Part shown: in pieces, positions 11,944 to 33,531 of the stretch
How the letters are laid out: each line of letters starts with the position of its first letter
Position numbering within the stretch: position 1 is the first letter of the stretch
The notes under the pieces: generated by a model
What the model was told of the DNA's origin: nothing
The model's database searches: none
The model's input: only the letters and a program-made list of their open reading frames with translations
Origin: Candidatus Hydrogenedentota bacterium
GTDB taxonomy: Bacteria > Hydrogenedentota > Hydrogenedentia > Hydrogenedentales > SLHB01
DNA length: 38,310 bases
Direction of reading: 5' to 3'
Assembly (NCBI GenBank): GCA_016215105.1
Contig: JACRLJ010000064.1
Span: 1-38,310, forward strand
Position numbers and translations under genes: made by a program

Positions 11944-12054
11944 GGCGCCTCCAGGGGCGCGCGTAGCGGCTCCGATTGTACACATTCCGTTCCTGCGGCG
12001 ATATTGGAGTGGATGCTCAGCAACGAGTACCCTTCACAGGGCGGAGGACATCAC

Positions 12055-14139
12055 ATGCCACAGGAAGATTTGGCGCTGCTGGAACGGTGGACCGAACAGC
12101 GGGACGGCGAGGCGTTCAGCGGACTGGTGTCGCGTTACAGCGGGGTGGTGTTTGGCGCCTGCAAACGCATTTTTGGCAATCGTCCGGATGCGGAAGACGC
12201 GGCGCAGGAATGTTTCGAGGCGTTGGCGGCAGCGGGGACGAAGCCGGGTCCGTATCTGGGAGCTTGGCTGCACCGGGTGGCGACGTATCACGCGTTGAGC
12301 CGACTGCGGGCTGACGAGCGGCGGAAACGCCGCGAGCAGGCTTTTGCGGAAGGGGCGGAGCGTCCGGCGGAGGTGGAGTGGAAAGACATCTATGAGTACG
12401 TGGATGAAGCGATCAACGAGTTGCCGGAACGGTTTCGCGTTCCGCTGGTAAGGCATTTCCTGGAGGGGCAGACTCAGGAAGCGGTAGGCGCGGCCCTGGG
12501 GGTTTCGCGGCGGGTAGTCAGTTACCGTATCACGCAAGGCGTTGAACGGCTCCGCACGTCATTGAAGCGAAAGGGGATCTATCACCTTGGAGGGCTCTCG
12601 CTGGCGGCGCTGCTAGAGGCGAATGCGGCGGAAGCCGCGCCCGCGACGCTTCTCGCGAAACTCGGCAAGGTCGCGTTGGTGGGGCCGGGAACCTCGGCGC
12701 CGATTGCGGCGGCGTCGGCGGTGCAGAAGGCCGCTGCGTCGGGGACGAGTTTCGCGGTGATTAAGATTGCCGCAGCGGCGGTCGCCGCGCTGATGCTCTA
12801 CGGCGCGGGGTATGCGGGGTGGAAGTACGTGCCGCGTTCGCAGCCGGCTCCTGCGGTCACCGTCTCGAACGTCAAGGCGGAGGACACTGCGGCGCCAGCC
12901 GCAGCGCCCGGTCAGTCCATACCGTCGGCAGCGCCGGCAGCGTCTCCCGCGCCTTCGCAGGCGGTACCGGGGGCGGCGGCTGCGAATGGGGCGAGCGGGC
13001 TAGTCGGGCCGTCGCGGGAAGCCCTCGAAAAGGGGCACGTCGTCAAACGAATATCACGCGAGGACGTCGAGAAGGCGCTGGAAACGGAAGTAGCGTTGTC
13101 GATGAGAGACGTTCATATTGGGGAGGTACTCAGCTTCCTTCAATCCAACTTCAGCGTAAACGTAATCCTGGACGACGAAGTGGTTGTTCCACGACGCGAG
13201 GATAGAATGGATTCCGCGCCGCAAAACGACACGATCACGTTACAGAAGGCGCCAGTGTATGTGACCGATGGGGCAATAACGTCGATCGGCATGAACGACA
13301 CATCCCTGGCGGAAATCCTGCGTACGGTATGTGATCCGCTGGGTCTCGACTATGTCGTGCGTGGCAAGTACATCTGGGTGAGTTCGCCAGCGCTCATCGC
13401 GGCGGAAAAACTGACGGACTCTCGCCCTTCGGAGGTTTCGGACGCGATGGAAGCCGTGCTCGAGAGTCATGCCTCAGTCCATATGAGCGATGTCCACCTA
13501 TCGTTTCTCCTTGACTTCCTCCAGAGCCAATACGACGCCAACCTTGTATTGGACTACCGCGTAGTATCCACTTGGGCGACGGATGGCGTTGCTTCATATC
13601 AGGAAGCAGTTGTGGATCCAAAATCACCGTATGTAACCGATGGAAGAATGCCCTATATCAGCCTGCAGAAAGTACCGTTGCGCGACGTGATTGACATCGC
13701 GTCTCGTCAACTCAATCTGGCCTATTCCGTGGAAGATGGTTTTGTCTGGATCAGCACGCTGGACCGGATCCGGCGACGACCGTTCCAGCCGCCCGATCTC
13801 ACCCAGGCCTCCCCGGCGCTGGTCGAGGCGCTGATTACGCCGATGACAATCGAATCGAAGAGTGAATCGCTAGTGGAAGCGCTGCGTGTTATCAAACAAC
13901 TCCAGCCGGTCGAGTTTGTGTTGGACACGGAAAGTGTCGGAACGCTCGGCGCGAAGGCTTGCAGCGTGGACCTCAAGGATGTGCCGCTGAGTACGGTGTT
14001 AAGCGTGGTCCTGCGCCGCTACGACCTGGATTACGTGGCGGCGGAACAGAATATCATTGTAACCTCTAGCGCAAAGGCGCACGGGAAAGATGTGAAACGG
14101 GGATCGTTGACGCCTGTGCCCGCAGTGGCCAGCAAGTGA
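12055..14139 (+). CDS. ECF sigma factor fused to a transmembrane anchor and three secretin/STN-like domains
   Basis: A 694-residue protein starting at the ATG at 12055, which has GGAGG 7 bases upstream. Residues about 9-95 are sigma region 2 (RPDAEDAAQECFEALAA, then the LGAWLHRVATYHALSRLR helix) and about 115-172 region 4 (LPERFRVPLVRHF and the TQEAVGAALGVSRRVVS recognition helix). Residues 232-252 form one membrane helix, followed by a roughly 75-residue Ala/Pro linker. Then come three repeats (about 340-444, 465-568, 588-672), each shaped like a secretin/TonB short N-terminal (STN) module: a V-H-x-x-x-V/L-x-F-L-Q helix, a VILDDEV or LVLDYRV strand, a YVTDG hinge in the first two, and an ending like YIWVSS. 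The layout equals a FecI sigma joined to a FecR-like receptor. Signal, partner and regulon are unknown. It is a single gene with no separate anti-sigma next to it. Confidence 0.85.
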   Translation: MPQEDLALLERWTEQRDGEAFSGLVSRYSGVVFGACKRIFGNRPDAEDAAQECFEALAAAGTKPGPYLGAWLHRVATYHALSRLRADERRKRREQAFAEGAERPAEVEWKDIYEYVDEAINELPERFRVPLVRHFLEGQTQEAVGAALGVSRRVVSYRITQGVERLRTSLKRKGIYHLGGLSLAALLEANAAEAAPATLLAKLGKVALVGPGTSAPIAAASAVQKAAASGTSFAVIKIAAAAVAALMLYGAGYAGWKYVPRSQPAPAVTVSNVKAEDTAAPAAAPGQSIPSAAPAASPAPSQAVPGAAAANGASGLVGPSREALEKGHVVKRISREDVEKALETEVALSMRDVHIGEVLSFLQSNFSVNVILDDEVVVPRREDRMDSAPQNDTITLQKAPVYVTDGAITSIGMNDTSLAEILRTVCDPLGLDYVVRGKYIWVSSPALIAAEKLTDSRPSEVSDAMEAVLESHASVHMSDVHLSFLLDFLQSQYDANLVLDYRVVSTWATDGVASYQEAVVDPKSPYVTDGRMPYISLQKVPLRDVIDIASRQLNLAYSVEDGFVWISTLDRIRRRPFQPPDLTQASPALVEALITPMTIESKSESLVEALRVIKQLQPVEFVLDTESVGTLGAKACSVDLKDVPLSTVLSVVLRRYDLDYVAAEQNIIVTSSAKAHGKDVKRGSLTPVPAVASK

Positions 14140-14191: not shown

Positions 14192-15256
14192 TCAGCGTTG
14201 GGCCGGGAACCAGGACTTGGTTGCTGTGCAGACTTTGCATACGGAGAGCATGACAGGGACTTCGACGAGGACGCCGACTACAGTGGCCAGCGCGGCGCCG
14301 GAGCCGGGGCCGTAGAGGGCGATGGCGGTGGCGACGGCGAGTTCGAAGAAGTTGGAAGCGCCGATGAGCGCGCCGGGGGCGGCGACGGCGTAGGGAATTT
14401 TGAAGACGCGCATCATACCGTAGGCGAGCGAGGCGTTGAAGTAGACCTGGATGAGGATGGGGATCGCGATCAGGACGACGTGCAGGGCGCGTCCGGTGAT
14501 GTTGTCCGCCTGGAACGCGAAGATGAAGACCAGGGTGGCCAGGAGGGCCATTACGGTGACCGGGTGAAAGAAGCCGAGGAATCGCTCGGTGAACCAGGCC
14601 TCGCCTTTCTTGCGGATGAGCACGCTACGGCTGACGGAGCCGAGGACTAAGGGTATCACGACGAAAATAATGACGGAATACAGGAGCACCTTGAACGGGA
14701 CTTCGAGTCCCGCGGCGCCCGAGACGAGAAAGCGCACGATGGGGGCGAAGGTGACCAGCATGACGAGGTCGTTCACGGCGACCTGCACGAGCGTGTAGGC
14801 GGGGTCGCCGTCGGAGAGATAGGACCATACGAAGACCATGGCGGTACAGGGGGCCGCGGCAAGGATGATCACACCGGCCAGATACTGGTTGGCCATTTCG
14901 ACGCCGAGCAGGGGCAGGAAAAGTCCTTTGAAGAAGACCCAGCCGAGCAGGGCCATAGAGAAGGGTTTCACGAGCCAGTTGACGACGAGGGTGACGGCGA
15001 GTCCTCCGGGGCGTTTGCCGACGCCGCGAATGGCCATGAAATCAATCTTGAGCATCATGGGATAGATCATCAACCAAATCAGAACGGCGATGGGGATGTT
15101 GATGTGGCTTCCGGAGCCGAATTCCCAGCCCCGGAGCGTATCGGTAAAGGCGGGTAGCAGTTTGCCGAGGGCGACTCCCGCGACCATGCAGAGCGCGACC
15201 CACAACGATAGGTAGCGCTCGAAGACGTTCATCCGTTTTTCCGGTTTGGCGCTCAT
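14192..15256 (-). CDS. acr3: Arsenite efflux permease ACR3
   Basis: A 354-residue inner-membrane arsenite carrier of the ACR3 (bile/arsenite/riboflavin) superfamily with ten hydrophobic helices. The family's essential cysteine is present as Cys137 in AAAPCTAMVFVWSYL, and the late motif GASNFFELAVATAIAL is intact. It exports As(III) made by ArsC. The ATG at 15256 has AGGAG upstream. It is the last gene of arsR-arsC-arsM-acr3, 114 bases after arsM, with a strong hairpin in that gap. ArsB is excluded by the ACR3-specific sequence and ten-helix length. Confidence 0.95.
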   Translation of the reverse strand: MSAKPEKRMNVFERYLSLWVALCMVAGVALGKLLPAFTDTLRGWEFGSGSHINIPIAVLIWLMIYPMMLKIDFMAIRGVGKRPGGLAVTLVVNWLVKPFSMALLGWVFFKGLFLPLLGVEMANQYLAGVIILAAAPCTAMVFVWSYLSDGDPAYTLVQVAVNDLVMLVTFAPIVRFLVSGAAGLEVPFKVLLYSVIIFVVIPLVLGSVSRSVLIRKKGEAWFTERFLGFFHPVTVMALLATLVFIFAFQADNITGRALHVVLIAIPILIQVYFNASLAYGMMRVFKIPYAVAAPGALIGASNFFELAVATAIALYGPGSGAALATVVGVLVEVPVMLSVCKVCTATKSWFPAQR

Positions 15257-15276
15257 GAGTTCGTTCTCCTGTGAAC

Positions 15277-15306
15277 CTTCTTTCTTTTCGCGTGAAAAGA
15301 AAGAAG
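15277..15306 (-). other. Perfect 13-bp hairpin in the arsM-acr3 gap
   Basis: CTTCTTTCTTTTC and GAAAAGAAAGAAG pair perfectly around a 4-base loop. In the operon mRNA it would fold just upstream of the acr3 ribosome-binding site. It could stabilise or attenuate the message; there is no U-run after it. Confidence 0.6.
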
Positions 15307-15370
15307 CAAAGAAAAGCGGCTAGTGGGACCCTGACCAGATTCAAACAACTGCCGGGTTCAGGATCACGAA

Positions 15371-16225
15371 TTACCGCTTTCGTGCGCTGACGTACAGGCT
15401 GGTGACAAAATCACTGGGCTTGGTTCCTTTGGGCAGAAGTTGGGCGATGCGTTGGTAGAGCGGGTCCTGCCAGTCGGTCATAGCGTCGATGTAGGCGTGC
15501 TTGGATTCGAGCACGATGGCGGTCAGGCCGGCCTCCTTGGCCATGCGCTCCGTGTCGGAGACGAGGACGGCTCCGGCGATACAGCCAATGAGCGATTCGA
15601 CCATGTCGACGATTTCTTTGGGCAGGGGACGTACGAGGGCGAGGTCGGATACGGCGACGCGTCCGCCGGGTTTGAGCGCGCGATGGATTTCGCGCCAGAC
15701 CTGGGGCTTGTCGGGAGAAAGATTGATGACGCAGTTCGAGATGATGACGTCCACACTGTTGTCGGCGACGGGCAGATGTTCGATTTCGCCGAGCCGGAAT
15801 TCGACGTTGTCCAGGCCGGTGCGCTCGCGGTAGGTTCCGAGGCCGCGGCGGGCTTTGGCGAGCATTTCGGCGGTCATGTCCACGCCGATGGCGCGCCCGG
15901 TCGGGCCGACGTTCTTGCCCGCGAGGAAGACATCGAAACCGCCGCCGCTACCGAGGTCGAGGACGACTTCGCCCGGTTTGAGTTCGGCCAGCGCGGTTGG
16001 GTTCCCGCAGGACAGGCCCATGTTGGCGCCGTCGGGCAGCGTGGCGAGATCGGCTTCGTCGTAGCCGAGACGTTCGGCCAGCGCTTCGCCCGAGCCGGAC
16101 CCGCAGCACGACGACGCGCCGCCGCCGCAGCAAGAGGCGCCGGTTTCCTCCGCGATACGGCCATAGCCTTCGCGTACCGTTTGACGAATGAGTTCAGGAT
16201 CTTTGGGATCGGTAGTCAATGCCAT
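15371..16225 (-). CDS. arsM: Arsenite S-adenosylmethionine methyltransferase ArsM
   Basis: A 284-residue SAM-dependent enzyme that methylates As(III) to methylated, partly volatile products. The SAM site is [10 protein letters not shown] (89-98). The three arsenic-binding cysteines of the family are present: Cys73 (GLSCGNPTA), Cys165 (SNCVINL) and Cys215 (IGCIAGA). The N-terminus also has two Cys-Cys pairs (32-33, 40-41) typical of bacterial ArsM. I use the ATG at 16225, which has AAGGA 9 bases upstream, rather than the TTG two codons earlier. It lies 44 bases after arsC in the ars operon, so the cell both methylates and exports arsenic. Confidence 0.95.
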
Positions 16226-16269
16226 GGACAACTATCCTTTCTGCCGCGCGAACGACGCGCGGTATTGGT

Positions 16270-22900: not shown

Positions 22901-24751
22901 ATGGCGGTACCGAACGAACGCATTCGCAATTTCTGCATTATTGCGCACGTAGACCATGGCAAATCGACTTTGGCGGATCGCATCCTTCAATTGACGGGCG
23001 CGGTGGACGCGCGCAATCTCAAGGAACAGACGCTCGACACGATGGACCTGGAACGCGAGCGCGGCATCACGATCAAGGCGGTCGCGGTGCGGCTGACCTA
23101 CAAGGCGGACGACGGCCAAGAGTACGCGCTGCACCTGATTGACACGCCCGGTCACGTGGACTTTTCATACGAGGTTTCTCGGAGTCTGGCGGCATGCGAA
23201 GGCGCGCTGTTGCTGGTGGACGCGGCGCAAGGCGTCGAGGCGCAAACCCTGGCCAATGCGTACAAGGCGATTGACCAGAATCTCGAAATCATCCCGGTCA
23301 TAAACAAGATCGATCTTCCGAGCGCGGACATTGACAACGTCCGTCGCCAAATCGAAGAGATCCTGGGCTTGGACGGCGCCACGGCGGTGTTGGCGAGCGC
23401 GAAGGAAGGGATCGGCACGCGCGACGTGCTCGAAGCCGTCATCAAGCGGATTCCGCATCCGAAAGGGGATCGGCAGATCTCGCCGCGCGCGTTGATCTTT
23501 GACGCCAAGTACGATTCCTATCGCGGCGTGGTGGTGTACGTGCGCGTCATGGATGGCCGGATATCGCGGGGCATGAAAGTGCAGATGATGTCCAACGGCC
23601 TGAAATACGAAGTGGCCGAGCTGGGATTCTTTTGCCCGGCGATCACGCCCGCGGACGCGCTCGAGGCCGGCGAAGTGGGCTATCTTATCTGCAATATCCG
23701 GAGCTTGAAGGACACGAAGATTGGCGATACGGTGACGGACGCCTTGAAGCCGGCGGAACGTCCGCTACCCGGATATGAGGAAGTGCAGCCGGTGGTGTTC
23801 TGCGGGATGTATCCCGCCGCCGCGAATGATTATCAGGAGTTGCGCGACGCGTTGGAGCGTCTGCAACTGAACGACGCCTCCTTTACGTATCAGGCGGACA
23901 GTTCGGACGCGCTGGGGCTGGGATTTCGCTTGGGGTTCCTGGGGCTGTTGCACATGGAAATCGTGCAGGAGCGGCTCGAGCGCGAATTCGATCTGACGTT
24001 GGTGACGACTGTGCCCAACGTGGCGTACCATCTGGTGCGGATGTCGGGAGAGAGTTTCTCGATTGAAAACGCGTCGAAGATGCCGCCGCCGGGTGAGATC
24101 GACCGCATTGAAGAACCGTACATTGAGGCGGACATCATGTGTCCGACCGAGTACTTGAGCGCGGTAATCGACTTGTGCAAGAAGAAGCGCGGGATTCACG
24201 TCCGCGTGGACTACATTGATTCGCGGCGCTGCATGGCGGTGTATCAACTGCCGCTGGCCGAGATCGTGTTGGATTTCTATGACAAGTTGAAGACGTATAC
24301 CCGCGGGTACGGCTCGATGGAATACCGCTTGATCGGGTTCCGCGAAGGCGATCTGGTGCGTTTGGATATCATGTTGAACGGCGAAATCGTGGATGCGTTG
24401 TCGTCGATCGTGCATCGCGAGCGGGCGGTGTGGGTAGGCCGGACCTTGGCGGTGAAACTGCGCGGGCTGATTCCTCGGCAGCAGTACGAGGTGGCGATTC
24501 AGGCGGCGATCGGCGCAAAGATCATCGTGCGCGAGACGGTCAAGCCTTTGCGCAAGAACGTGACGGCGAAGTGCTACGGCGGCGACATTACGCGCAAACG
24601 GAAGCTGCTGGAGAAACAGAAAGAAGGCAAGAAGCGAATGAAACAGGTTTGCTGCGGGTCAACGAAGAGTCGGAATAGGCCGTGTCGCAGGAAGAAACGA
24701 AACCCTCAGACGCTTCACGAGCGCTCGCGGCGATGCTGTTGTCGCCGCTGA
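22901..24751 (+). CDS. lepA: Elongation factor 4 (LepA) with damaged C-terminus
   Basis: A translational GTPase that acts on stalled or mis-translocated ribosomes. The G domain is complete ([20 protein letters not shown]), followed by domains II, III, V and the LepA-specific C-terminal domain up to [18 protein letters not shown] and KKRMKQV. The family normally continues with about 12 residues (GNVEIPQEAFLA-like) and a short tail. Here those are missing and the frame changes: the present frame reads a cysteine-rich unrelated tail to 24751, overlapping lepB by 70 bases. In the neighbouring frame, [10 protein letters not shown] ends at a stop at 24676-24678, 3 bases before lepB, which looks like the native tail. 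A small deletion of 3n+1 or 3n+2 bases, or an assembly error at about 24646, explains this. Confidence 0.93.
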
Positions 24752-26013
24752 CGTTCGTTTTCGGCCCACTTACGCGGGACAACGCAATTGGTTGGGTGAA
24801 GATCGTCCTGGTGGTCCTCGGCATCCAATGGATTTGGTTTCAGCCGTTTGCTGTTCCGTCCGGTTCGATGGAACCGACGATTCATGGCGACGAACATTTT
24901 TTTGTTGGCGACCGGGTCGCGGTAAACAAGCATCGCTACGGCATACGCGTTCCGTTTACGAACAAGTTGATCTATCGCGGGGCCGATCCCCAGCGCTGGG
25001 ACATTGTCGTCTTCAATAATCCGGACAAGAACGCCAAGCACGGCATCTTGGTCAAGCGGCTGGTGGGACTTCCCGGCGAGCGCATCCACATCCGCGGCGG
25101 CAAGGTGTATGTGAACGGGAAGGCGCTCGAACTGCCTGCTGATATGCCACCGGTTCAGTACACCAGCGGCGACATGACCGATCCCGAGGAGGTCAAACGG
25201 AAGCTGGATCGGATGAATCTTTCCCCGGCCGACCGGCGCGCATACGAGGCCGAGATCATGCGCGTATCGGTTGCGAATTCGGGTCTGGCTCAATTCAAGT
25301 ACGGTGTGCTGCTCGAGGACGAGTATTCGGTCGTGCCTCCGGACCACTACCTGATGCTGGGAGACAATAGCGCAAACAGCGGCGATGGGCGTGTCTTCGG
25401 GTGGGTTCCACGCGAGAACTTAATAGGCCCGGTGTTTTGCATTTGGTGGCCGTTTAGTCATGGCCGCGATTTTACGGGATTCACGAAAACGTGGTGGGGC
25501 AAACCGCTGCTCTACGGAATCCCGGCGCTGTTCATCCTGTATGAGATTCTGTCTGCAAGCTTCGTGCGGTCCTGGCGCGTTTCTCATGCGGGTCCGGGCG
25601 AGTTGTTTCAGAAAGGCGACCATGTGGTCGTGAACCAGGCGGCGTTTGGCGTGCGTTTGCCGCTGTTGGGGGCGCGCGTAACGCAGGGACGACCTCCGCG
25701 GCGCAACGAACTGGTATTCTACGTTGCTCCCGGCCCCGATGGTTCGGAGCAATTGTGCATGGGCCACGTGTTCGGGTTTCCTGGGGACTCTGTTACGGCG
25801 GACGCCGGCGGCGATGGAAGAGGGAGCGGGGCGAGTGTGGTACCCGCGGGACACTACTTCATCCGTCAGTCGTCTGCTGGCCGCGAAACAGCAAAGCCTG
25901 CCTGCGTCGCGCACGGGGACCTGGCCGGCAGCGTGATGGCGGTGTGGTGGCCGGTGAGCCGCGCGCGGTCGTTCGCGGCGCCAGACGACGGTGATGGCGG
26001 CCGGGCATCGTGA
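24682..26013 (+). CDS. lepB: Signal peptidase I with a second, inactive peptidase-like domain (copy 1)
   Basis: A 443-residue membrane serine protease that removes signal peptides from exported proteins. An N-terminal helix (about 38-56) is followed by the Ser-Lys dyad: Ser62 in PSGSMEPT and Lys125 in [11 protein letters not shown], with box [12 protein letters not shown] at 227-237. A second membrane helix (about 273-293) leads into residues 305-430, which repeat the fold: [19 protein letters not shown] mirrors [17 protein letters not shown], but the lysine position is Gly361 and no serine nucleophile is left. Usual bacterial enzymes have one such domain and 200-350 residues. The GTG start lies 3 bases after the presumed native lepA stop. 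The next gene is a paralogue with the same architecture. Confidence 0.88.
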
Positions 26014-26047
26014 TTGATCGTGGCATGGCGAGCAACGTGAGCGAGTA

Positions 26048-27376
26048 ATGGCCAAGAAGAATTCAAAGACCGGCGGCAGAGCGGATAAACCGAACCGGAA
26101 GCCGGGCACGGGCGTATCGCCTGAACGCTCCGCGTTCCTGGGCGCCGTGTCGTGGTTCGTCGGGGATCTTTCCCGGCAAAACGCGATTGATTGGACGAAG
26201 AATATCGGAATCGCGCTGGCCGTCGCGTTCATGATTCGCTGGCCGCTGGCGGAGCCGTACAAGATCCCGTCGCAGTCCATGTATCCGACACTAAACGGCG
26301 TTGACCGATTTCTGAGGGGAGACCGGGTATTCGTCAACAAATACGTGTACGGCGTGCGCGTTCCTTTCATGAACAAGCGGCTTTGGCGCGGAGCGGACCC
26401 TCAGCGGTGGGACATCGTGGTATTCCAGTCGCCGGATCCGGAGGCGCAGCACCCGACCTTGATCAAGCGCATCGTTGGCCTGCCGGGCGAACGCATTCAT
26501 ATCGCCCACGGCAAGGTGTACGTCAACGGCGAGGCCCTCGAGCTTCCGCCGAACATGCCGCCCGCATACTATACGTCGCCGGGTCCGGGGCAGCGTGACA
26601 TGGTGTACGGCGTCCTTGAAGACGAGACGCATGCCGTGGTTCCCAAGGAGCACTACCTGATGCTCGGGGACAACAGCGGCAATAGCCGCGACGGCAGGTA
26701 TTTTGGCTGGGTTCCGAATGAGAATATTGTCGGCAAGGCATTTTGCATTTGGTGGCCGATTCCCCGTTGCCGCGACTTCACGGGATTTACGCGCACGTGG
26801 TGGTGGAGGACGATAGCATCGGTCTTGGGTATTCTTCTAATTGTTAGGCTGTTCTACGGGCGTTCATGGTGCCTGCGGCATCCAGTTCTGGGCGATACGA
26901 TCGGCGCCGGTGAACACCTATACATCCACCGCGCGGCCCTGGGTATTCCCACTCCCTTTACACGCAGGCGAATGACGCCCGGACGCAAGCTCGTTCGCGG
27001 CGAAATCGTCGTCTATCACGGCCCCCCGAATCCAGTGACCGGCGAACACACCTTTGCCGGACGCGTCGCGGGCCTGCCGGGCGAACGTGTCTACCTCGAC
27101 AACGGGAAATTGACCACCAACGGCGCGCCGCTCCCGGCTTCTGATCCCTTGGCCGAGCGCACCTTCAGCACGGACGGTGCGGCGGGGACCTACGGGCGTT
27201 CAAAAGGCAAAGAGTACTCCGAGGTCCCCGACGGCCACTATTTCGTCCTATGCGATGACGCCAGCGGCTATCCCGACAGCCGCACGCTGGGATGGATTCC
27301 GCGCCGCGACGTCATCGGCGTGGCCACGGCGGTCTGGTGGCCGTTGAGTCGGCTCCGTAGAATCACGGCGTGTTAG
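26048..27376 (+). CDS. Signal peptidase I with a second, inactive peptidase-like domain (copy 2)
   Basis: A 442-residue paralogue of the preceding gene, 34 bases downstream, with a lysine-rich cytoplasmic N-terminus. The catalytic pair is Ser77 (PSQSMYPT) and Lys140 (LIKRIVGLPGE), box E is GDNSGNSRDGR, and membrane helices lie at about 52-68 and 253-270. Residues 285-435 again repeat the fold; the second domain keeps GRVAGLPGERVYL, HYFVLCDD and GWIPRRDVIG but has Gly338 in place of the lysine. The shared Lys-to-Gly change in both genes suggests the domain was duplicated first and the gene afterwards. Two enzymes could divide substrates or act together; this cannot be told from sequence alone. 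Confidence 0.87.
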   Translation: MAKKNSKTGGRADKPNRKPGTGVSPERSAFLGAVSWFVGDLSRQNAIDWTKNIGIALAVAFMIRWPLAEPYKIPSQSMYPTLNGVDRFLRGDRVFVNKYVYGVRVPFMNKRLWRGADPQRWDIVVFQSPDPEAQHPTLIKRIVGLPGERIHIAHGKVYVNGEALELPPNMPPAYYTSPGPGQRDMVYGVLEDETHAVVPKEHYLMLGDNSGNSRDGRYFGWVPNENIVGKAFCIWWPIPRCRDFTGFTRTWWWRTIASVLGILLIVRLFYGRSWCLRHPVLGDTIGAGEHLYIHRAALGIPTPFTRRRMTPGRKLVRGEIVVYHGPPNPVTGEHTFAGRVAGLPGERVYLDNGKLTTNGAPLPASDPLAERTFSTDGAAGTYGRSKGKEYSEVPDGHYFVLCDDASGYPDSRTLGWIPRRDVIGVATAVWWPLSRLRRITAC

Positions 27377-30055: not shown

Positions 30056-31645
30056 ATGGCACGCGGTGTATTGGTCTGCACAATGATGTTGTTGGCGATG
30101 GGGGCGTTTGCGCAGCCGTCGAGTGAACCCGCTGTTCCGGCGAAGGACTTCGTCGTCATTTGTCCCGTGGAAGGCCTGATTGACGATGGCGTCACGGTGT
30201 TTGTGAAACGGGCGATACGCGAGGCCTATGGGGCGAAAGCGATCATCTTTGTGGTGGACACCTTTGGGGGCAAGGTGGATTCGGCCATCGAGATCTCGAA
30301 CGCCATCCTCAACGCCCCGTGCAAGACGATCGCGTACATCAAAGGCAAGGGCGCGATCTCGGCGGGCGCGTTAATCAGCTTCTCGTGCAACACCATGGTC
30401 ATGGAGCCCGGATCGGCCATTGGCGCCGCAACTCCCGTGATAGCGGGGCCCCAAGGCATGGAGCCGACGAGCGAGAAAGAGGTCTCGTTTATGCGCGCGA
30501 AGATGCGGGCCTTGGCAGAACGCAACGGCCACAATCCCGATATTGCGCAGGCCATGGTGGACAAGGACATCGGCTTGCGCGGTGTGATGCAAGGCGGGAA
30601 GTGGGTCGTCTATGCGGAGAACAAGGATCGCGCCGTGTCCACGCCGCCGGCGGGCGCCGTTAAGGACATCGTCGAGACGATACTCAAGGCCGTTAAGGAA
30701 GCCGGGGGGGTGGATTTGCCGGATGTGAAGCCGAAGCCGGCGCCAGAGGCCGCGCCCGCGGATCAGACGCCCGCCAAGGCGCCGGACGGAAGTGAGGTGG
30801 TTCTACCTGTCGGTAAGCTGCTTACGATGACACCCAATGAAGCGGTGAAGTACGGTGTTATTTCGACGACCGTGGTCAACCTCGAGCAGGTTATGGGCGT
30901 GTTTGATGTGCCGAACGCCGAAAAGCATGTGCTTGCAATGAGCTGGAACGAACTTATTTTCCGTTTTCTGACGAATCCCTTGGTCTCGGGCATCTTGCTG
31001 ATGCTCGGGGTGGGAGGGATCTACTTCGAGATGAAGGCGCCTGGCCACACGCTGCCGGGCGTAGTCGGCGTGGTGTGCCTGGCCATCTTCTTCGGTTCCT
31101 ACGCGCTGATCGGCTTGGCTGACTGGTTCGACGTCATTTTGGTCGTCGTGGGCGTAGTACTCATCCTCGTGGAGATCTTCGTGGTTCCCGGCGTGACCTT
31201 TCTTGGCGGGGCCGGGTTGGTGTGCATCATACTGGGGTTGTACCTTGCGTTGACCGGCGCCTTCATCCCGGAATTTGCGTGGGACTACGCGCGGCTCCAG
31301 AATGCGATGGTGACCGCTATGGTGGCCGGAGTTGCATTGTCGGCGTTAGTCTATCTGTCGTGGAAGTATTTGCCTCGCACGCCGCTCTTCCAGGGTATTT
31401 TGATGACGTATACGCAGGGGCCCGCGAAGGGGTATGTCGTGCAGACCGAGGAACAGCGGGCCATCGCGGAGGGGCTGGTGGGCGTCGCGACGAGCAAGCT
31501 GCGTCCGGCGGGCCGGGGCCGCTTTGGCGATACCACCTATGATGTGGTGAGCAATTCCGAGTATATTGAACCCGGCGAACCCATCGTCATCGTTCAGGCC
31601 GACGGGAACCGCTACGTAGTGGATCGATACAAGGGAGCGAAATGA
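30056..31645 (+). CDS. nfeD: Long NfeD protein (ClpP-like membrane serine protease plus NfeD domain)
   Basis: A 529-residue membrane protease of the NfeD1b/STOPP class. After a signal peptide (1-19), residues 30-215 form a ClpP-like domain: VDTFGGKVDSAIEIS and KGKGAISAGALIS with the nucleophile Ser102, and the general-base lysine about 40 residues on (Lys141 or Lys148). An Ala/Pro linker at 222-245 follows, then five membrane helices (about 302-438) and a C-terminal OB-fold NfeD domain (465-525). In archaea and bacteria these proteases cut the C-terminus of the partner flotillin/stomatin, and floA lies three genes downstream. The ATG has AAGGA upstream; the stop overlaps the next gene in an ATGA junction. 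Confidence 0.92.
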   Translation: MARGVLVCTMMLLAMGAFAQPSSEPAVPAKDFVVICPVEGLIDDGVTVFVKRAIREAYGAKAIIFVVDTFGGKVDSAIEISNAILNAPCKTIAYIKGKGAISAGALISFSCNTMVMEPGSAIGAATPVIAGPQGMEPTSEKEVSFMRAKMRALAERNGHNPDIAQAMVDKDIGLRGVMQGGKWVVYAENKDRAVSTPPAGAVKDIVETILKAVKEAGGVDLPDVKPKPAPEAAPADQTPAKAPDGSEVVLPVGKLLTMTPNEAVKYGVISTTVVNLEQVMGVFDVPNAEKHVLAMSWNELIFRFLTNPLVSGILLMLGVGGIYFEMKAPGHTLPGVVGVVCLAIFFGSYALIGLADWFDVILVVVGVVLILVEIFVVPGVTFLGGAGLVCIILGLYLALTGAFIPEFAWDYARLQNAMVTAMVAGVALSALVYLSWKYLPRTPLFQGILMTYTQGPAKGYVVQTEEQRAIAEGLVGVATSKLRPAGRGRFGDTTYDVVSNSEYIEPGEPIVIVQADGNRYVVDRYKGAK

Positions 31646-31947
31646 TGGATCTGCGGATCTCGTTGATCAAGATGTTGAAGCGGCTGCTCGAGGACATGCA
31701 AGTCGTTCAGCAGCAGGGCGCGGGGTATTATAGTTGCTCGTCCGTCGCCAAGCGGTATAACAAGCTCTTGGAGCAGGCGCGCACGCTGTTTCCGGAAGCC
31801 CACGGGTTGATTAGCACCTTCGACGCAGCGCCCGAAGCCGATCCGAAAGATCCCGGTGACAAAATGAAGCTGATGCAAGACATGCGAATCGAGATCGCGC
31901 AGCTTATCTCGTTGTTGGAGTCGAGCGCGGAGGCGGGCACATCGTGA
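31642..31947 (+). CDS. Small conserved-looking helical protein of the nfeD operon
   Basis: A 101-residue protein of unknown function, translationally coupled at both ends: its ATG overlaps the nfeD stop (ATGA) and its stop overlaps the next start (GTGA). It has no membrane segment or signal peptide. The predicted structure is mainly helical, with two amphipathic helices (about 3-25 and 72-95) around a Cys-containing YYSCSSVAKRYNKLLEQAR segment, suggesting a small soluble adaptor acting on the cytoplasmic side of the two NfeD proteins. The codon overlaps make it very likely a real gene. Confidence 0.75.
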   Translation: MMDLRISLIKMLKRLLEDMQVVQQQGAGYYSCSSVAKRYNKLLEQARTLFPEAHGLISTFDAAPEADPKDPGDKMKLMQDMRIEIAQLISLLESSAEAGTS

Positions 31948-32429
31948 TCCAGACTATCGTGATACTTTTCATTGCGGGAATGGCGCTTATTTTCGCCGAG
32001 TTCTTCGTGCCGGGATTGATCTGCGGCGTGATCGGCGCGCTGATGGTGATCTCGAGCGCCGCATTGGGCTGCTACCACTATCCCGACCACGTCTACTTGA
32101 TCCTGTTTGTCGAGTTCCTTGGCGCGGCGTTTACGGTGGGGCTGGGCATATACTTGTTCCCGAGATCGATTGCCGGCAGGGTCATGATACTTACCGATAG
32201 TCAGCAGAAAAACGCGGGTTGGGTGGCCGCCGAGTCTGATACTTCGCTCGTTGGCGCGCAGGGCGAGGTCTATACGGCGCTGAGGCCCGCGGGCAGCATC
32301 GTTGTCCACGACAAGCGGCTCGACGCGGTATCCGACGGCACCTTCATCGATAAGGGCGCCGCGGTACGCGTGATCGAGGTCCAGGGCAGCCGTGTAGTGG
32401 TTGAGAAAGTGACCGCAGAAGAACGTTAG
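31944..32429 (+). CDS. Short NfeD protein
   Basis: A 161-residue membrane protein of the short NfeD kind. Several hydrophobic helices occupy residues 1-75 (ending LGIYLFPRS) and the OB-fold NfeD domain lies at about 95-158, with [36 protein letters not shown] as the typical strands. It lacks the protease domain. Such proteins partner with flotillins (the YuaF/YqeZ relationship in Bacillus), and floA is the next gene. The GTG at 31944 overlaps the preceding stop by 4 bases. Confidence 0.9.
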
Positions 32430-32455
32430 GTTCCGTTGCGATAGCGGGGTTGCCT

Positions 32456-32479
32456 GCGCAGCGGGCGAGCCCGCTGCGC
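32456..32479 (+). terminator. GC-rich hairpin between short nfeD and floA
   Basis: GCGCAGCGGGC and GCCCGCTGCGC form an almost loop-less stem of 10-11 bp, followed by TGTTTCGTTTC, 27 bases after the nfeD stop. It could act as a partial terminator or an mRNA-stabilising hairpin, since the downstream gene has its own ribosome-binding site. Confidence 0.5.
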
Positions 32480-32517
32480 TGTTTCGTTTCAGTACAGTCC
32501 AGAAAGGATGGCGCGAC

Positions 32518-33531
32518 ATGAATCCCTTGTTGATTGTCGTTGTAGTGGTAGTGGGTGTTATCGGGTTGGTATTTTTCACGGTACTGATCACGTTCTTCCA
32601 GTTGTACATTCGGGCATTGGCGTCGGGGGCTTCCGTGGGGCTGATGAGCCTCGTCGGTATGAAACTGCGCAGAGTGAACGCGGGTGTCATCGTGGACAGC
32701 CGGATTATGGCGGTAAAGTCGGGACTGAATATTTCGACGAACGAGCTCGAGACGCACTATCTCGCGGGCGGTAACGTGGTGCATGTCGTACAGGCGCTAA
32801 TTGCGGCGAACAAGGCGAATATCCCGTTGAGTTTTCAGCAGGCGACAGCGATTGACCTGGCAGGCCGCGACATTCTGGCCGCGGTACGGACCTCGGTAAA
32901 TCCGAAAGTGATCGATTGCCCGGATCCGACGAAAGGCTCAGCAACCGTGGCCGCTGTGGCCATGGACGGGATTCAGCTCAAGGCCAAAGCGCGGGTGACG
33001 GTACGCACGAATATTCGTACCCTGGTAGGCGGCGCGACGGAAGAGACGATTATTGCGCGCGTGGGTGAAGGCATCGTGACGACCATCGGTTCGGCGGAGT
33101 CTCACAAGCGCGTGCTGGAAAACCCGGATTCGATATCGAAAGTGGTATTGGCGCGCGGCTTGGACGCGGGCACGGCGTTCGAGATTCTCTCGATCGATAT
33201 TGCGGATGTGGATGTTGGCGAGAACATCGGCGCGCAGTTGCAGATCAAGCAGGCCGAGGCCGACAAGCAGATCGCGCAAGCGCGCGCGGAGGAACGCCGC
33301 GCGATGGCGATGGCGCGTGAACAGGAAATGCGCGCGCAAGTTGTGGAAATGCGCGCGCGCGTCGTGGAGGCTGAGGCTGAAGTGCCCCGGGCGATGGCCG
33401 AGGCGTTCCGCAGCGGAAATCTCGGGATTATGGACTATTACCGGATGAAGAATGTGATGGCTGACACCGATATGCGCACGTCCATATCGAAGATGGACGG
33501 TGGCGAGGAACAGCAGCCCGTAAAGAAATAG
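32518..33531 (+). CDS. floA: Flotillin-like protein FloA
   Basis: A 337-residue flotillin-like scaffold of functional membrane microdomains. Residues 4-28 form the membrane hairpin/helix, followed by the SPFH core ([20 protein letters not shown] through [18 protein letters not shown]) and a long Glu/Ala-rich coiled coil with [23 protein letters not shown]-type heptads at about 262-305; the family length is matched. FloA (YqfA) gathers membrane proteins including NfeD proteases and signalling kinases. The ATG has AAAGGA upstream. It follows the NfeD genes, as in Bacillus yqeZ-yqfA, and precedes a proline-rich membrane protein. Confidence 0.93.

Follow-up and report, generated by a model that had tools for sequence, protein, structure and literature searches.

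An anchored ECF sigma factor with three STN modules

The window analyzed here is the whole of a 38,310-nucleotide stretch, contig 52 of a 6.7-Mb draft genome (171 contigs) of an uncultured Candidatus Hydrogenedentota bacterium. It carries at positions 12055 to 14139 (forward strand) a complete gene for a 694-residue protein, P0001, in which a sigma factor, a membrane helix, and three STN modules follow one another, as established from the open reading frame translation, Pfam, and an AlphaFold2 model built with 25 sequences. The gene is real and intact, and a Shine-Dalgarno-like GGAGG (12043 to 12047, forward strand) lies 7 nt 5′ of its ATG. An earlier note made from the sequence had described the gene with these coordinates as a fusion of sigma regions 2 and 4 with a periplasmic STN sensor, and the domain order given by Pfam, family profiles, and the model bears this out.

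Sigma-70 region 2 spans residues 24 to 89 (12124 to 12321; PF04542 Sigma70_r2, E value 2.6e-8), with Foldseek matches to solved ECF sigma factors, and region 4 spans residues 119 to 167 (12409 to 12555; PF04545 Sigma70_r4, E value 7.1e-9; pLDDT ∼90). These are the only sigma regions above the Pfam cut-offs; TIGR02937 (sigma70-ECF) matches at 1.5e-19, and the sigma part is modeled with a pLDDT of ∼95. Compared with solved structures, the whole model retrieves ECF sigma factors with E values down to 1e-8 and the N0 domain of PilQ at 4e-3. Two conserved cysteines, Cys 36 and Cys 53, are both within region 2. No anti-sigma domain is recognized in P0001 by Pfam: PF04773 (FecR) is absent, FecR_C matches weakly (18.8 bits against a cut-off of 24.4; E value 0.0017), and the zinc-finger anti-sigma domain of ECF52, ECF48, and ECF53 gives no match.

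Hydropathy reveals a single hydrophobic segment at residues 233 to 251 (the earlier note had it at 232 to 252), and the model places the transmembrane helix at residues 234 to 257 (12754 to 12825; hydropathy 2.03), a position that is constant in 109 of the 110 members of the P0001 sigma clade. It is followed by the proline/alanine-rich linker that the note had also remarked on (residues 258 to 334; 12826 to 13056), which is predicted to be periplasmic and is disordered in the model (pLDDT below 50 over residues 259 to 332). The sigma factor is probably cytoplasmic and the STN modules periplasmic; charge counts on either side of the helix do not reveal a positive-inside bias. Between region 4 and the membrane is an alanine-rich element (residues 173 to 210; 12571 to 12684) with the pattern ..G....L..LL..N.AEAAP..L...LGK.AL.G, which is conserved across the 110 family members at a mean information content of 1.5 bits over residues 173 to 206, equal to that of the linker between sigma regions 2 and 4, even though these proteins carry various sensors. 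Because P0001 lacks an anti-sigma domain, this segment is the best candidate for a built-in brake or latch.

The outer region contains three STN/N0-like modules, at residues 340 to 452 (13072 to 13410; pLDDT ∼88), 468 to 577 (13456 to 13785; pLDDT ∼87), and 587 to 674 (13813 to 14076; pLDDT ∼72), all on the forward strand. Pfam alone detects only the third (PF07660, residues 637 to 670; E value 2e-8, 34.3 bits against a curated cut-off of 28.4), and modules 1 and 2 are recognized by family profiles and the model. A full module here consists of two halves with an insert between them that varies and in most cases terminates in (V/A)TDG; the VTDG motif is present in modules 1 and 2 and missing from module 3. 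Half-module profiles A and B, built from relatives with P0001 itself in the seed, alternate as A-B-A-B-A-B (340 to 379/402 to 452, 468 to 506/526 to 577, and 591 to 630/638 to 674), and the same alternation is seen in five relatives outside the seed (L085, L083, L086, L088, and L117), with zero matches in a shuffled database. The AlphaFold2 model has a beta-alpha-beta/beta-alpha-beta-beta arrangement three times over, and a Foldseek search with the outer region alone returns the PilQ N0 domain (E value 3e-3, probability 1.00) together with LspD, EscC, FpvA, PupA, and a FecR-like anti-sigma factor. These E values are modest (3e-3 to 0.2) and some phage baseplate proteins match at similar values, so the assignment rests on sequence and structure jointly; taken together, the Foldseek matches indicate an N0/STN fold for the outer modules, and the three repeats proposed earlier for residues 340 to 672 are upheld by Pfam (for the third), family profiles, AlphaFold2, and Foldseek.

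Exchange of outer sensors and the distribution of the STN cassette

The sigma-plus-anchor half of P0001 has more than 100 relatives; a named search retrieves Candidatus Hydrogenedentota records almost exclusively, plus a few from Armatimonadota, Planctomycetota, and Kiritimatiellaeota. Seven close paralogues of this half (38 to 50% identity) are encoded in the same genome; their outer parts vary, and tandem CarboxypepD_reg sandwiches predominate among them. Among ∼135 distinct sigma proteins scored by profile, 80 have CarboxypepD_reg alone and 10 have STN, one of these having both; other outer sensors include the carbohydrate-type F5/8 type C fold. The sister of P0001 in the sigma tree is L118, with a support of 99/85 and a sigma part that is 63% identical, and since this nearest sigma carries CarboxypepD_reg, the sensor was swapped. 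The STN label requires five changes on the sigma tree, at least four of them forced by well-supported branches, which together with the L118 sister relationship shows that outer sensors are exchanged on a constant sigma-plus-anchor chassis. With up to ∼15 copies per genome, the family is large enough to be a main signaling route of the phylum. In bacterium Co_bin.47 (L188/L189), at least five sigma-anchor-sensor genes stand in a row over ∼20 kb, a tandem expansion.

Homologues with the domain order of P0001, which the earlier note had proposed to look for, are found: there are 10 STN-sigma fusions in nine Hydrogenedentota genomes, and they fall into two sigma clades. The P0001 clade includes P0001, L054, and L117, which has two in tandem, one also carrying CarboxypepD_reg; a distant clade includes L078, L082, L089, L083, L074, and L085. 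The closest three-module region to that of P0001 by BLAST is in L078 (34% over 336 amino acids), whose sigma belongs to the other clade. For the collection scan a closer set was used, since the nine STN-sigmas aligned together proved too divergent. L078 (7923 to 10310) and L082 (5742 to 8135) end in a 50-amino-acid tail, WYNTGDMFERYELKTISPEEGRCVLRE, which by eye resembles GspC-HR/PilP domains, known to bind secretin N0 domains, although a Pfam search at 0.01 gave no such match.

The STN cassette is also found on a second type of output. Fourteen BlaR1-type M56 peptidases are trailed by STN modules, and a BlaI-like repressor gene lies upstream of most of those inspected, Pfam-confirmed for three of them and for one gene on contig 103 of the P0001 genome. 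Hydrogenedentota loci of this kind (L084, L086, L087, L088, L226, and L228 to L237) code for membrane proteases with two to five STN modules, arranged as in BlaR1/BlaI systems except that a secretin-type sensor replaces the penicillin-binding one. On contig 103 (18.8 to 24.0 kb; L043:3811-9043), a BlaI-like gene and an M56 gene accompany a frame of 1,382 amino acids that contains CarboxypepD_reg and STN modules; the M56 frame overlaps this STN frame, perhaps because of a frameshift. Altogether, 11 M56 matches occur in the genome. Both the large family with exchangeable sensors and the cassettes common to BlaR1-type proteases had been missed in the earlier note. The genome's secretin (contig 37) carries the same STN module, and the cassette is present in 22 of 68 Hydrogenedentota genomes at an E value of 1e-12. 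The STN-region tree is poorly resolved; in its sole firm informative group, M56 proteins and sigmas from a single family have a cassette in common.

Because the secretin of the phylum bears this cassette too, the switches could be monitoring a secretion or pilus machine. The corresponding proposal, that the cassette is specific to Hydrogenedentota, acts as an exchangeable sensor in the periplasm for two or more unrelated outputs, and lets the switches respond to such a machine and not to an external nutrient, is a speculative one that we consider unlikely as a whole; if true, anchored sigmas and BlaR1-type proteases alike would watch the phylum's own secretion or pilus machine.

Planctomycetota ECF sigma factors with C-terminal extensions have a homologous sigma and helix. 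In this phylum, 38 of 149 genomes match the sigma-plus-helix half at an E value of 1e-15, with 30 to 47% identity and with a helix near residue 235, the same place as in P0001, in 24 of 25 inspected proteins; the outer parts are WD40, PQQ/BamB, redoxin, DUF3108, or CarboxypepD_reg. An STN cassette of the P0001 type, however, was found in none of the 149 genomes at 1e-8, a count that reflects BLAST sensitivity alone and has no positive control. ECF57 proteins combine a WD40 extension with a cysteine pair linking sigma regions 2 and 4, whereas P0001 has no WD40 domain and both of its conserved cysteines are in region 2.

A promoter-like site of the family in front of the sigma gene

A predicted ECF-like promoter site of the family lies at 11974 to 12016 (forward strand) and is the only strong site in the window. 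Its blocks are TTGTACACATT (11976 to 11986), GCGGCGATATT (11995 to 12005), and GTGGA (12009 to 12013), the last starting 46 nt before the ATG. The family motif approximates TTGCCAAATT, about 9 to 12 nt, GCGGCGTC(T/A)TT, a few nucleotides, and GTAGAA, with a CCAAATT-like and a GCGTC-like block, and is mostly located 25 to 50 nt 5′ of the start codon. The second block is similar to the −10 element of the CGTC type in ECF promoters. A reading of GTAGAAT alone as a housekeeping −10 element was considered and rejected, as it seldom stands before other genes (9 of 494 against 20 of 134) and extends into the two-block ECF-like motif.

The promoter model was evaluated by five-fold cross-validation, in which clusters of similar upstream regions were kept together, against 642 control upstream regions. 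Among held-out family genes, 76% score above the 95% control level and 41% above the 99% level; P0001, when held out, ranks at 0.6%, above 99.4% of the controls. Its site scores 25 bits, with the next best in the 38-kb window at ∼10, and after training without P0001 and its closest kin it scores 23.2 bits, with the next best at 10.5. In 1.7 Mb of fetched sequence there are 82 sites above 15 bits, at least 61 of which precede sigma genes; the remaining 21 have no automatic tie to a sigma gene, but several do belong to sigma genes with a missed start. With up to three mismatches allowed, the strict form of the P0001 site has a single occurrence in the whole genome.

Since no other copy of the promoter is present in the window, and the genome contains the strict form of the P0001 copy just once, the likely target is P0001 itself, and P0001 probably switches on its own gene, with its sigma domain recognizing the site at 11974 to 12016. 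Self-activation by each family member is the simplest reading of the shared promoter, although another regulator may recognize it. No regulon gene besides the sigma gene itself was found with the promoter model.

Proposed signaling by the anchored sigma factor

P0001 is a sigma factor with fused membrane and sensor parts, and such fusions are already known as a kind; our literature search found no paper on such proteins in Hydrogenedentota. The interest lies in an STN sensor on a sigma that lacks an anti-sigma domain, in the swapping of sensors, in the cassette common to BlaR1-type proteases, and in the self-directed promoter. P0001 would resemble the FecI-FecR-FecA system in that a periplasmic part with STN controls an ECF sigma from across the inner membrane, but FecI, FecR, and FecA are three separate proteins and P0001 is one, with no receptor adjacent. 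The BlaR1/BlaI-type systems of its Hydrogenedentota relatives use the same STN modules as outer sensor, yet their output is an M56 metalloprotease and a BlaI-like repressor in place of a sigma factor. A domain otherwise familiar from secretins and TonB receptors serves here as the sensor of two distinct outputs. SCO4117 of Streptomyces coelicolor (ECF52) likewise joins an ECF sigma, a membrane helix, a proline-rich outer linker, and an outer sensor, in its case a carbohydrate-binding domain (PMC8999054); it differs from P0001 in outer domain and phylum, and in having the ECF52-type zinc-finger anti-sigma domain.

The closest parallel in layout is IutY of Pseudomonas putida, an ECF243 sigma/anti-sigma hybrid that also combines a cytosolic ECF sigma, one helix, and a periplasmic domain in one polypeptide, and whose sigma is freed by sequential Prc and RseP cleavage (PMC9249621, PMC8999054). 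The periplasmic ends of IutY-related FecR-type proteins such as PupR and FoxR contain an STN subdomain, and in Pseudomonas the STN-STN contact between receptor and FoxR shields FoxR from proteolysis (PMC11637429). In contrast to IutY, P0001 has no FecR anti-sigma domain, has three STN modules and not one, and has no neighboring receptor; its sigma belongs to the Hydrogenedentota/Planctomycetota-type family, whereas that of IutY is of the FecI type. The P0001 genome also encodes one S41 (Prc-type) protease and an RseP-type M50 protease (HELGH), of which ∼550 amino acids precede an assembly gap. Prc and RseP are near-universal, and their presence is therefore weak evidence for release. The order proposed for P0001, with the sigma inside and the C terminus outside, is that of RseA and IutY, which are RseP substrates.

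We favor, at a probability of roughly 60%, the reading that P0001 is a self-contained, membrane-anchored ECF sigma factor acting as a one-component switch, with periplasmic STN sensing, proteolytic release by Prc- and RseP-type enzymes, and transcription of its own gene. The N-terminal sigma would be tethered in the cytoplasm by its one helix and kept inactive through anchoring, perhaps aided by the conserved segment at residues 173 to 210. The three STN modules would detect a signal when a partner or ligand binds to them, whereupon the periplasmic stalk would become exposed to a Prc-type protease, an RseP-type site-2 protease would cut the helix, and the freed sigma would transcribe its own gene, in positive feedback, and a small regulon. 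The earlier note had argued that release needs proteolysis or a conformational change across the membrane, and the proteases in the genome are consistent with this. P0001 would then exemplify transmembrane sigma signaling without a separate anti-sigma factor.

Alternatively, the sigma may work while tethered, with STN binding altering its dimer state or the segment at 173 to 210 and RNA polymerase being recruited at the membrane without cleavage. Regulators of the ToxR/CadC type act membrane-bound, and this reading fits with the conserved 34- to 40-amino-acid element that is present between region 4 and the helix with every sensor type, with the missing anti-sigma domain, and with a self-directed promoter, which suits a local regulator. 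We nonetheless regard it as rather unlikely, as IutY, the best-studied sigma of the same layout, is freed by proteolysis (PMC9249621), and the long disordered proline/alanine stalk suits protease access. A further proposal concerns the input only and is compatible with either mode of release: the STN modules could attach to the STN/N0 domain of an outer-membrane protein whose gene is unlinked, either the contig 37 secretin or a TonB receptor, with the sigma reporting the state of the complex. STN domains do bind each other, as FoxR and FoxA do (PMC11637429), and the P0001 modules and the secretin of this genome have sequence in common, the TDG motif included. But no secretin, GspC, or TonB gene was recognized by eye beside the STN-sigma genes examined, the occurrence of these modules on M56 proteases as well speaks for a general sensor, and the STN tree has too much depth for coevolution to be read from it; such docking is unlikely on balance.

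The earlier note had gone further and offered the neighboring sulfatase/sialidase-like/pectate-lyase locus as a plausible target and the polysaccharide as a plausible signal. A lyase-like gene does lie directly upstream of P0001 on the same strand, and carbohydrate-type folds such as F5/8 type C are among the sensors that its relatives carry. No family promoter precedes the genes at 562, 9773, and 9613, however, whose scores of −2.3, 5.7, and −0.7 are at chance level, and the motif stands only before the sigma gene; moreover, neighborhoods are not conserved, and no conserved neighbor genes are seen around the STN-sigma relatives examined. A polysaccharide-responsive regulon at this locus is thus very improbable, and whereas the fusion, the need for release, and the lack of an adjacent anti-sigma or receptor gene (there is no FecR-type anti-sigma or TonB receptor among the window's main open reading frames) hold up from that interpretation, the target does not. 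That the protein is an artifact, through chimeric assembly in a 171-contig draft or a decayed sigma drifting with an STN protein, is hardly credible given ten sigma-STN proteins in nine genomes and two sigma clades, an intact long frame, a confidently modeled sigma part, and a promoter site in front.

The window has several other gene groups that we record here. An SBF-family permease resembling ACR3-type arsenite pumps lies beside a methyltransferase at 14192 to 16231 (reverse strand), perhaps an arsenic detoxification pair. On the forward strand, two tandem signal peptidase S26 genes (24682 to 27376) lie directly 3′ of lepA, and NfeD-type proteins are followed by a flotillin-like FloA at 30056 to 33531.
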